Assembly (NCBI GenBank): GCA_018266845.1
Contig: JAFDZO010000016.1
Location: forward strand, 1 to 64,000
Reading direction: 5' to 3'
Source: Bacteroidota bacterium
Lineage (GTDB): Bacteria > Bacteroidota > Ignavibacteria > Tepidaquicellales > Tepidaquicellaceae
DNA length: 64,000 nt
Under the pieces are notes generated by a model. That model was given only the letters and a program-made list of their open reading frames with translations. It ran no database searches and was not told where the DNA came from. The stretch's first letter is position 1, and each line of letters starts with the position of its first letter. This document shows positions 43,252 to 54,005 of this stretch, in pieces. The translations under genes were made by a program, and so were the position numbers.

Positions 43252-43620
43252 CTCTCCTTAAGAAAGGAGAGGGAAGACATGCGAAGTGTCCCTCGTTCCG
43301 ATGCTCCAGCTTCGGAACGTAAATCAAACCGACCATTAAAAATTGGAGTTTGTTCCGCACTTGATGCGGGATTAAGAAAATTACAAGAAAAAGCGTAAGC
43401 CAGAAAAACTGTTTGAGTCCGCTTGAAAAATGGCGAGCTGAGTTTACGAAGTCCCGCTTCAGCGGGATTTTTTTCGAGCAGCTTTTTCGCTGAAATTTTT
43501 AGCTAAATTTTTTCTCCTTGCGAAGCTCTTGCATCGCGAGGAATATGTTTTATGAAACTCCGCTTCATAACAAAACAGAGTTTTGTGGGCACTTTCCGTC
43601 CCAAACGGAGTTTGGGACGG
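43252..43620. repeat. Cluster of short hairpins with TCC/GGA-type loops
   Basis: In order: 43252-43259/43264-43271 (8 bp, loop AAGA); 43294-43301/43312-43319 (8 bp, loop with CTCC); 43355-43359/43365-43369; 43452-43458/43461-43467 (7 bp, loop TC, then T7); 43520-43526/43531-43537 (one mismatch, loop TCTT); 43550-43556/43564-43570 (core CTCCG); 43570-43576/43580-43586 (loop AGA); 43595-43606/43610-43621 (12 bp, loop GGA). Stem sequences differ but loop and core recur; the last two pairs abut. They resemble the set at 41.25-41.35 kb. Confidence 0.68.
43452..43474 (+). terminator. Terminator-like hairpin with T7
   Basis: A 7-bp G-C-rich stem (43452-43458 with 43461-43467), a 2-nt loop, and seven Ts. 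It has the form of an intrinsic terminator, but no plus-strand gene precedes it within 500 bases, so it may simply be one of the repeated hairpins. Confidence 0.4.
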
Positions 43621-51286: not shown

Positions 51287-52873
51287 ATGTTAACCCAAAC
51301 AATGTCCGCAGCAGGAAAAAATAACATATTGTGGATTGATGATGAAATCGAGCATCTGAAATCGAACATACTTTATCTGAAAAACAAGGGATACAATGTA
51401 GATGAAGCAACCAATGGCGAAGACGGAATTTCATTGGTCCGCAACAAAGATTTTGATTTGGTTTTCCTTGATGAAATGATGCCCGGCAAGGGAGGATTGC
51501 AGACTCTCACGGAGTTGAAAGAGTTGCGCCCATCCCTTCCTGTAGTAATGGTAACGAAAAATGAGACTGAAACACTGATGGAAGATGCAATCGGAAGCAA
51601 AATTTCAGACTACCTCATAAAGCCTGTTAATCCTAATCAGGTTCTTCTTGTTTGTAAAAAAATTCTTGAGTCAAAAAGAATAACAGGTAATCAGGTTTCG
51701 CGAGATTATATTCAGGGCTTCAATGAAATTTCCATGTCTCTGATGGATAATCCCAATTGGCAGGATTGGATTGATATTCACGTAAAGATGACAAACTGGG
51801 AAATGGAGCTTGATGCGCACCCAAATCTCGGACTTAAACAAACACTCACAGACCAGCGTAAAGAATGCAATATAGAATTTTCAAAATTTGTTGAGAAAAA
51901 TTACGTTCACTGGGTAAATGAAACGCGCGATAAGCCCGTGCTTTCTAATCAGATTGTTGATAACTATGTTATACCAGAACTTGATAAATATAAATCGGTT
52001 TTCTTTTTTGTGATTGACTGTATGCGCCTCGACCAGTGGATGGTGATGGAGCGTTATCTTCACGAGTATTTCAAAATTCAAAAAGATTATTATTATTCGC
52101 TTCTTCCCACGGCAACTCCTTACAGCAGAAATGCAATTTTCGCAGGGTTATATCCTTCTGATTTGGAAAAGCATTACCCCGAGCTATGGAAAAAAAACGA
52201 TGACGATGAAAATAGCAAGAACAACTATGAAAAAGAATTTATGCAAAAGCTTCTTGAAAGAAGAAAAATAAAGTTGCGCAACGACCTGAAATATACGAAG
52301 ATAATGGATTCGGATTTCGGAAGGGGAATAGAAAATAAAATTCAGTCTTACTGTAATAATCACTTAAATGCAATCGTAATAAACTTTGTTGATATGATGG
52401 CGCACTCTCGAAGTGATTATGCAATATTAAAAGAAATTGCTCCCGATGAATCTGCATACCGCTCGCTTACTGCCTCATGGTTTGAGCACTCATCGTTTTT
52501 CGGAATGCTCCGTCAGCTTGCAAATAAGCCCGATGTGAAAGTAATTATTACTACAGATCACGGAAGCATAAGATGTTTGCATGGTGTGAAAGCTTTAGGC
52601 GATAGGGAGACTTCAACTAATCTTAGATACAAATGCGGAAGAAATGTAAAGGCAGAGCTTCGCAATGCAATTTTCATTAAAGATCCGCTTGAATACAAGC
52701 TGCCGAAAAGAAGCGGCATAGTGAACTACATTATTGCGAAAGAAGATTTTTATTTCGTTTATCCGACTGAATATCATAAATATTTGAATCAGTACAATGA
52801 TACGTTTCAGCACGGGGGAATTTCAATTGAAGAAATGATTCTTCCCGTTGTAACTCTGGAACCGAAATTATAA
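51287..52873 (+). CDS. porX: PorX response regulator with PglZ domain
   Basis: A 528-residue protein with a CheY-like receiver (about 12-130; phosphoacceptor D62, T90, K112) followed by a PglZ-type alkaline-phosphatase-like domain (about 230-510). Zinc-site residues visible are D244, T277 (ATPYSR), D424-H425 (TTDHGS) and H509 (HGGISIEEM). This is PorX, which with PorY controls type IX secretion genes in Bacteroidota; it is a nucleotide phosphodiesterase in studied species. Its presence beside five T9SS cargo genes fits. The stop TAA is in frame with the following tsaE. Confidence 0.93.
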   Translation: MLTQTMSAAGKNNILWIDDEIEHLKSNILYLKNKGYNVDEATNGEDGISLVRNKDFDLVFLDEMMPGKGGLQTLTELKELRPSLPVVMVTKNETETLMEDAIGSKISDYLIKPVNPNQVLLVCKKILESKRITGNQVSRDYIQGFNEISMSLMDNPNWQDWIDIHVKMTNWEMELDAHPNLGLKQTLTDQRKECNIEFSKFVEKNYVHWVNETRDKPVLSNQIVDNYVIPELDKYKSVFFFVIDCMRLDQWMVMERYLHEYFKIQKDYYYSLLPTATPYSRNAIFAGLYPSDLEKHYPELWKKNDDDENSKNNYEKEFMQKLLERRKIKLRNDLKYTKIMDSDFGRGIENKIQSYCNNHLNAIVINFVDMMAHSRSDYAILKEIAPDESAYRSLTASWFEHSSFFGMLRQLANKPDVKVIITTDHGSIRCLHGVKALGDRETSTNLRYKCGRNVKAELRNAIFIKDPLEYKLPKRSGIVNYIIAKEDFYFVYPTEYHKYLNQYNDTFQHGGISIEEMILPVVTLEPKL

Positions 52874-52888
52874 TTTTTAGCAAAACTC

Positions 52889-52916
52889 GTAGAGGCGCAA
52901 AGTATTGCGTCTCTAC
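52889..52916. repeat. 12-bp palindrome between porX and tsaE
   Basis: gtagaggcgcaa (52889-52900) pairs with ttgcgtctctac (52905-52916) with one G-U pair and a 4-nt loop. Only a weak T/A tail follows, so terminator function is doubtful. The sequence resembles the gtagagacgcaa-type palindrome that I recall as dispersed in many bacterial genomes. It separates porX from tsaE. Confidence 0.6.
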
Positions 52917-52933
52917 TGTTTATAATAAATATC

Positions 52934-53380
52934 ATTTCAATCAACAAAATTCTCACATACTCTCCTGAAGAAACTCAGGCAGCCGGTTTTGAGTTCGCAT
53001 CTTCTATAATTCTATCTGAGGTAATAGGATTTAAAGGAGAGCTTGGCTCCGGCAAAACGCAGTTTATAAAAGGTATTTGTAAATACTTTAATGTAAAAGA
53101 AGTAGTGAATAGCCCGACTTTTTTGATTGTAAACGAATACAAAGGTGAGAAAAACGGCAAAGAAGCTTTTATAAATCACTTCGATTTATACCGGCTGAAA
53201 TCAGATGAAGATTTGTTTTCAATCGGTTTCGATAATTATATTACTTCAAATTCGATTTGTTTAGTTGAATGGTCAGAACTTGCCGAAGAGCATCTAAATG
53301 AAAAATTGAAGACCGTAAGTTTTGATTACGGGGAAAATGAAAACGAAAGAATAATTCAATATGAAGCTCTTACTGCTTGA
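52934..53380 (+). CDS. tsaE: tRNA threonylcarbamoyladenosine biosynthesis protein TsaE, non-standard start
   Basis: A 148-residue TsaE, the ATPase of the t6A complex TsaB-TsaD-TsaE. The Walker A is GELGSGKT (35-42), and SPTFLIVNEY, FDLYR and LVEWSEL follow. The family-like N-terminus, INKILTYSPEETQAAGFEFASS, is encoded upstream of the first GTG (53105), so the real start must be further up. No ATG, GTG or TTG lies in frame between the porX stop (52871-52873) and 53105. I place it at ATT 52934; ATC 52931, ATC 52940 or CTG 52916 are alternatives. The gene ends 20 bases into tsaB. Confidence 0.85.
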   Translation: MSINKILTYSPEETQAAGFEFASSIILSEVIGFKGELGSGKTQFIKGICKYFNVKEVVNSPTFLIVNEYKGEKNGKEAFINHFDLYRLKSDEDLFSIGFDNYITSNSICLVEWSELAEEHLNEKLKTVSFDYGENENERIIQYEALTA

Positions 53381-54005
53381 TTCATCTTCTGCAGCAATTG
53401 AGTTTGCAGTTTTTGAAAATGAGAAAGAAACTTTACGGCACGAGCTATCGAAAGATGAAAACGCTGATGCGCTTGTTTATAATATGAGTAAGCGTTGTAA
53501 AGAGTATGAAGTTAGGATTAATGAAATAGATTATGTATCTGTTTCAAATGGTCCCGGCTCTTTTACCGGATTGCGTATTGCTTCCGCTATAGCAAAAGCA
53601 ATTTGTTTTGCCTCTGATGCTAAACTGGTTGAGGTAAACTCACTTGACGTTCTTGCAAACAGAGTAGAAACTGAAAAATTAATTGTGCCTCTTATTTTTT
53701 CAAATTCAAAAACACAGGAATTTTATTTTTCAAAATTTAAGCGCGGTAGTTTACTTGACAGAATTTCACCGTATGAAATTGGCGTTTTGCCCGGCATAAT
53801 AAATGATGAAGATTTTTTTGTTTCAAATCAGAGGGTGGAAGGATATGAGGACAAAATCCTCACTTTTGACTCATCCGGCATAATTTCACTTTATCAGTTG
53901 ACGCTTAATTATATTTCACAAAAAAAATTTTCTGACTATAATACATCGGAGCCGTTCTATATGAAAGAATTTGTTCCGCTAAAATCGCAAAAAAAACTTT
54001 TATGA
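53361..54005 (+). CDS. tsaB: tRNA threonylcarbamoyladenosine biosynthesis protein TsaB
   Basis: A 214-residue TsaB of the ASKHA fold: LLLLDSSSAAIEFAVF at the start and VSVSNGPGSFTGLRIASAIAKAICF in the middle are the family hallmarks. It scaffolds TsaD and TsaE for t6A37 in tRNA. The ATG lies inside tsaE (20-base overlap). tsaD is not in the window. Confidence 0.92.
   Translation: MKLLLLDSSSAAIEFAVFENEKETLRHELSKDENADALVYNMSKRCKEYEVRINEIDYVSVSNGPGSFTGLRIASAIAKAICFASDAKLVEVNSLDVLANRVETEKLIVPLIFSNSKTQEFYFSKFKRGSLLDRISPYEIGVLPGIINDEDFFVSNQRVEGYEDKILTFDSSGIISLYQLTLNYISQKKFSDYNTSEPFYMKEFVPLKSQKKLL

Follow-up and report, generated by a model that had tools for sequence, protein, structure and literature searches.

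The question raised by this locus was how translation of tsaE, encoded directly downstream of porX, begins in a reading frame with no ordinary start codon ahead of its conserved N-terminus. The window (the whole stretch of DNA analysed, 64,000 nucleotides) carries the features listed in Table 1. The tsaE frame runs from 52874 to 53377 with its stop codon at 53378-53380, and comprises 168 sense codons after the porX stop (TAA, 52871-52873), all in the porX frame. Reading of the frames bore out the initial annotation, in which this TAA was described as the sole stop between the porX start and the tsaE stop in the shared frame of this genome, and in which tsaE was said to have no in-frame ATG, GTG or TTG from the porX stop up to GTG 53105, with the P-loop encoded upstream of that GTG. 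In no frame does the interval from the porX stop to the P-loop hold an ATG or GTG, and its TTGs are all out of frame.

Identity and integrity of TsaE

The product was identified as TsaE by matches above the curated cut-offs to PF02367 (118.8 bits) and TIGR00150 (91.8 bits), with an intact P-loop; the profile match starts at 52961. The fold predicted from the proposed ATT start had a mean pLDDT of 89.5 and placed the first strand at residues 3-8, opening two residues past ATT 52934. tsaB adjoins tsaE, and the support of t6A synthesis by this TsaE together with TsaB and TsaD is putative. A shorter TsaE starting at GTG 53105, the first standard start and the one that an ordinary ORF listing gives, or else a decayed gene, was judged highly improbable: the short form would be deprived of the P-loop, as had been pointed out earlier, and also of strand 1 and helix 1 of the predicted fold, the N-terminal part of the protein is under purifying selection (see below), and the genome has no second tsaE above the cut-off.

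Table 1. Coordinates of the features discussed, in the window unless a contig is named
Feature	Position	Strand	Evidence or remark
porX (T9SS response regulator, PglZ domain)	51287..52873	+	upstream neighbour; NF052313, 722 bits
REP-like dispersed palindrome, porX-tsaE gap	52889..52916	+	12-bp stem, 4-nt loop
Proposed tsaE start ATT (alternatives ATC 52940-52942, ATC 52931-52933)	52934..52936	+	ATT conserved in G001, 34 codons to P-loop, start context
tsaE CDS as proposed	52934..53380	+	148 codons plus stop; PF02367, TIGR00150, predicted fold
Walker A / P-loop GELGSGKT	53036..53059	+	sequence motif
GTG, first in-frame standard start of tsaE frame	53105..53107	+	too late for real start
tsaB	53361..54005	+	downstream neighbour, ATG overlaps tsaE end; TIGR03725, 88.7 bits
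infC of this genome	G000:C10:7511-8164 (L054)		other family infC loci: L055, L056, L057

Start codons of tsaE in relatives

The start codon used in relatives, a check that the initial annotation had called for, was examined in the one other genome of the genus included (G001; 75-76% protein identity over TsaE) and in a set of 44 loci of the order together with one locus from a further family in the class. The tsaE gene of G001 likewise has no ATG, GTG or TTG between its upstream stop and the P-loop. A standard start was found in 41 order or class loci and was absent in three, namely this genome, G001 and L171. The L171 locus is truncated by a contig end and was left out of the set with intact 5' ends, in which the relatives outside the genus had a standard tsaE start in 41 of 41 cases and lacked one in 0 of 41. 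These starts are placed 31-39 codons ahead of the P-loop, with additional ones outside that range in a few loci. In a second, named collection, made up of 80 wider TsaE loci found by contig search using an alignment, 80/80 had a standard start, 15 codons or more ahead of the P-loop. With 0 of 41 and 0 of 80 loci lacking a standard start outside the genus, its absence exceeds what chance would give. The missing start is therefore real and genus-specific, shared by two separately assembled species: it was seen in both examined genomes of the genus and not beyond the genus. As a candidate for the class of genes with non-canonical starts, tsaE has no standard start before its conserved N-terminus, and this property is conserved in relatives (the two genus genomes).

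A sequencing or assembly error that masks an ordinary start might be suspected in a draft assembly of 46 contigs, and the 5' end of tsaE had been marked for such a check, but this account is very unlikely because the independent genome of another species (G001) shows the same absence; nor would an indel restore a start, as there is no suitable one in another frame. The comparison bears equally on the earlier suggestion that ribosomes may read on from porX through its stop, to yield a PorX-TsaE fusion. The two genes do share a frame in both species, with one stop only in this genome, but in G001 another TAA follows in frame 45 nt past the porX stop TAA, several relatives have tsaE in a frame other than that of porX (often with an ATGA overlap; others have the same frame), and the linker of the fusion would here be coded by a dispersed repeat. 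Because of the second stop in G001 and the differing frames in relatives, read-through is not supported, and it was given next to no weight.

In many relatives tsaE lies against or overlaps the porX stop and starts with ATG or TTG. TTG starts are frequent across the family (L007, L008, L012, L020, L023, L024, L026, L029, L030 and L032), and several of them touch or sit near the porX end. These observations suggest that weak starts of tsaE are favoured throughout the family, with the ATT as perhaps the extreme case. The tsaB gene of G001 apparently has a TTG start directly after tsaE (L004, about 1490-1430, minus strand), compared with ATG 53361 here.

Choice of the start codon

With the SPEET motif as anchor, an ATT is found eight residues upstream in both species (52934-52936 here), and an Ile codon six residues upstream in both (ATC 52940-52942 here, ATT in G001). 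From the ATT onward the two species have in common I-x-I-N-K-I-x-T-Y-S-P-E-E-T, and upstream of the ATT there is no resemblance, the ATT being the first codon of the conserved block. The distance to the P-loop is 34 codons from ATT 52934 and 32 codons from ATC 52940, to be compared with the 31-39 codons of the relatives. Over 143 codons of tsaE, this genome and G001 differ at 27/24/77 first, second and third codon positions; in the first 36 codons the counts are 4/6/19. For tsaE, pN was 0.16 and pS 0.84. Judged by these substitutions, the N-terminus from the ATT onward is under purifying selection.

A start-context profile was built from 37 ATG genes of the window, their starts being putative, with a median score of 2.94. 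Candidates here scored 2.75 (ATT 52934), 3.27 (ATC 52940), -0.33 (ATC 52931) and -6.09 (CTG 52916), and those in G001 scored 0.60 (the ATT at eight residues), -4.28 (at ten) and -5.56 (at six). The context of ATT 52934 is near the median of the ATG genes, and its homologous ATT is the top candidate in G001. ATT 52934 has A at positions -3, -6 and -12; A at such upstream positions has been discussed as favourable in Flavobacterium johnsoniae, whose phylum is naturally without Shine-Dalgarno sequences (PMC6847099). No Shine-Dalgarno sequence was evident ahead of tsaE here.

That tsaE starts from none of the three standard codons (ATG, GTG, TTG) is well supported by these comparisons. The reading preferred, with a probability of roughly 0.8, is that tsaE is functional in the genus and that its translation begins at an Ile codon outside the canonical set. 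The most likely one is ATT 52934-52936, which fits best as the joint candidate over both species, followed by ATC 52940. A start at ATT 52934 is predicted to give the TsaE N-terminus M-SINKILTYSPEETQ here and M-PINKIITYSPEET in G001, and a start at ATC 52940 would give M-NKILTY. Use of another Ile codon by the same mechanism was considered unlikely, though the least remote in the case of ATC 52940-52942, which lies within the relatives' distance range and whose context here slightly exceeds that of the ATT (3.27 against 2.75); the corresponding ATT of G001 scores poorly for context, while ATC 52931-52933 combines a negative score with the lack of an Ile counterpart in G001. The proposal of the initial annotation that translation begins at ATT, ATC or CTG thus stood as to a non-standard start, with the ATT as best candidate, and fell as to CTG 52916, which has a poor context and is absent from G001. 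A frameshift from TTG 52905 was also discarded, that frame reaching a stop within a few codons.

Putative AUU starts elsewhere in the genome

infC had been named as a precedent for ATT starts, and the precedent holds within this lineage. In infC of this genome, G001, G007 and G008 the IF3 domain is not preceded by a standard start, and all four genes have ATT AAA GAY in common at the expected start. AUU initiation is therefore plausible in the lineage, since infC in the same genomes is also without an ordinary start and shares the ATT. A survey for further cases covered 464 kb of this genome (the window plus 400 kb) and 299 coding-like ORFs. Among the ORFs in which a notable coding signal precedes the first standard start and which were checked for overlaps, tsaE alone proved to be no shadow of a longer gene, and the other case, a short one, was infC; by this outcome non-canonical starts are rare in this genome too. 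A published reconstruction counted 1 switch to AUU among 61,358 ancestral AUG starts (PMC5622118).

Comparison with known non-canonical starts

Starts of infC (IF3) include AUU in E. coli, AUC in Streptomyces and AUA in S. aureus (PMC5472188, PMC13009471), and its non-standard start is also treated in PMC9410913. Like infC, tsaE has no standard start and keeps an Ile codon where the N-terminus is expected. In E. coli infC the AUU serves autocontrol by IF3, whereas any control of tsaE is hypothetical and the tsaE trait is confined to one genus. pcnB of E. coli is described, in work cited in PMC9410913, as the second chromosomal gene with an AUU start. It resembles tsaE in being an ordinary enzyme gene with AUU, proposed for tsaE and described as limiting translation in pcnB, and differs in that tsaE is another gene in another phylum. 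pcnB is nonessential; tsaE is usually essential.

In S. aureus, cvfC1 (AUU) and ccpN (AUA) have conserved non-canonical starts missed by annotation (PMC13009471), and the tsaE start is likewise conserved, non-canonical and overlooked by annotation; the two S. aureus genes have extended Shine-Dalgarno motifs and the support of ribosome profiling, whereas the tsaE start is a predicted one and is without an evident Shine-Dalgarno motif. sigR of Streptomyces starts at GTC and is repressed by IF3, as shown by experiment (PMC5472188); as with tsaE, its start is conserved but non-canonical and gene callers place it wrongly, and it differs in that GTC is not an Ile codon and that its regulation has been demonstrated.

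No report of a non-canonical tsaE start was found in the open-access literature searched, and tsaE of this genus is, by comparison of sequences, most likely a new addition to the small known class (infC, pcnB, cvfC1). Few bacterial genes are known to start outside ATG, GTG and TTG, and gene callers miss them: annotation restricted to these three codons would here give a TsaE without its ATP-binding loop. A case in two species and in a usually essential gene suggests that genes other than infC can also acquire such starts as a fixed trait.

Proposed history and mechanism

The AUU of tsaE would presumably be read by initiator tRNA-fMet, as in infC. In the genus, a short spacer parts porX from tsaE with no ordinary start left, and tsaE would begin in an unpaired A+T-rich stretch right after a dispersed palindrome. 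We infer that the standard start was lost in the genus ancestor and that palindromes entered the gap later, and expression of tsaE is expected to be low. Compatible with initiation at the ATT is reinitiation (translational coupling) there by ribosomes finishing porX, for which no strong start site would be needed. Such coupling would fit several relatives, in which the porX stop is overlapped by the start of tsaE (ATGA) or is separated from it by no more than about 18 nt, but the gap here, about 55-60 nt and holding a stable hairpin, is long for reinitiation, and coupling was held possible but doubtful.

Control of tsaE through IF3 is possible. The fuller proposal, that the AUU is a selected control by which initiation sensitive to IF3 would hold TsaE at a low level and link t6A modification of tRNA to the condition of the initiation machinery, parallel to the infC AUU in the same cells and with the porX-tsaE hairpin tuning the site, was regarded as improbable, though not to the degree of read-through. 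The tsaE AUU would offer a testable link from initiation fidelity (IF3) to a tRNA modification needed for decoding.

Palindromes in the porX-tsaE gap

The 12-bp palindrome that had been noticed in the gap is present; it is not particular to this site. It spans 28 bp (GTAGAGGCGCAA-AGTA-TTGCGTCTCTAC), with 12-bp arms and a 4-nt loop, and forms a strong hairpin with one G-T mismatch, a G-U pair in RNA. It belongs to a dispersed, REP-like repeat: GTAGAG-type copies numbered 60 in this genome at up to 1 mismatch and about 91 at up to 2, compared with 1 in G001, and several form arrays that repeat about every 110-120 bp. The gap of G001 holds a different palindrome, CCGTCCCAAAC-n4-GTTTGGGACGG, with 23 copies in G001 (up to 2 mismatches) and 25 exact copies in this genome, one of which is in the window (43596-43620). 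Both families were intergenic in the sample, with some sites common to both, except for three copies in an ORF inside one array; the two were noted at 43596-43620 of the window and at G000:C2, C10, C19, C23, C25 and C41. That two unrelated palindromes occupy the same gap is most simply accounted for by the preference of both families for intergenic sites, and a common need for a hairpin in the porX-tsaE gap of both species is possible. The palindrome was rejected as a dedicated local switch, being one of a dispersed family and having its place taken in G001 by an unrelated palindrome that is likewise dispersed.

The palindrome is dispersed, multi-copy, intergenic and within 20-40 bp, as expected of REPs, and like the GTAG- and CGTC-tagged REPs (PMC3733652) the palindromes here are short, dispersed, intergenic and contain GTAG or CGTC. 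REPs as defined carry the tag unpaired at one of their ends (PMC3733652), whereas at 52889-52916 no unpaired GTAG tag is found at the stem end, GTAG pairing with CTAC; since the GTAG or CGTC is here part of the paired stem, these palindromes miss a defining REP feature. An Rfam search gave no credible match, and a promoter scan of the + strand between porX and tsaE found no promoter-like site. The palindrome at 52889-52916 conforms to a simple terminator pattern, with a weak T tail.

Y1_Tnp-family matches numbered four in this genome, none flanked by a palindrome of the 52889-52916 type, and none in G001. These counts parallel the abundance of the GTAGAG palindrome, a weak parallel from two genomes only. 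One of the four, a Y1_Tnp/RAYT-like gene, has a CCGTCC palindrome just past its stop (L191:1333-1358 and 1393-1998; G000:C7, about 72823-73490).
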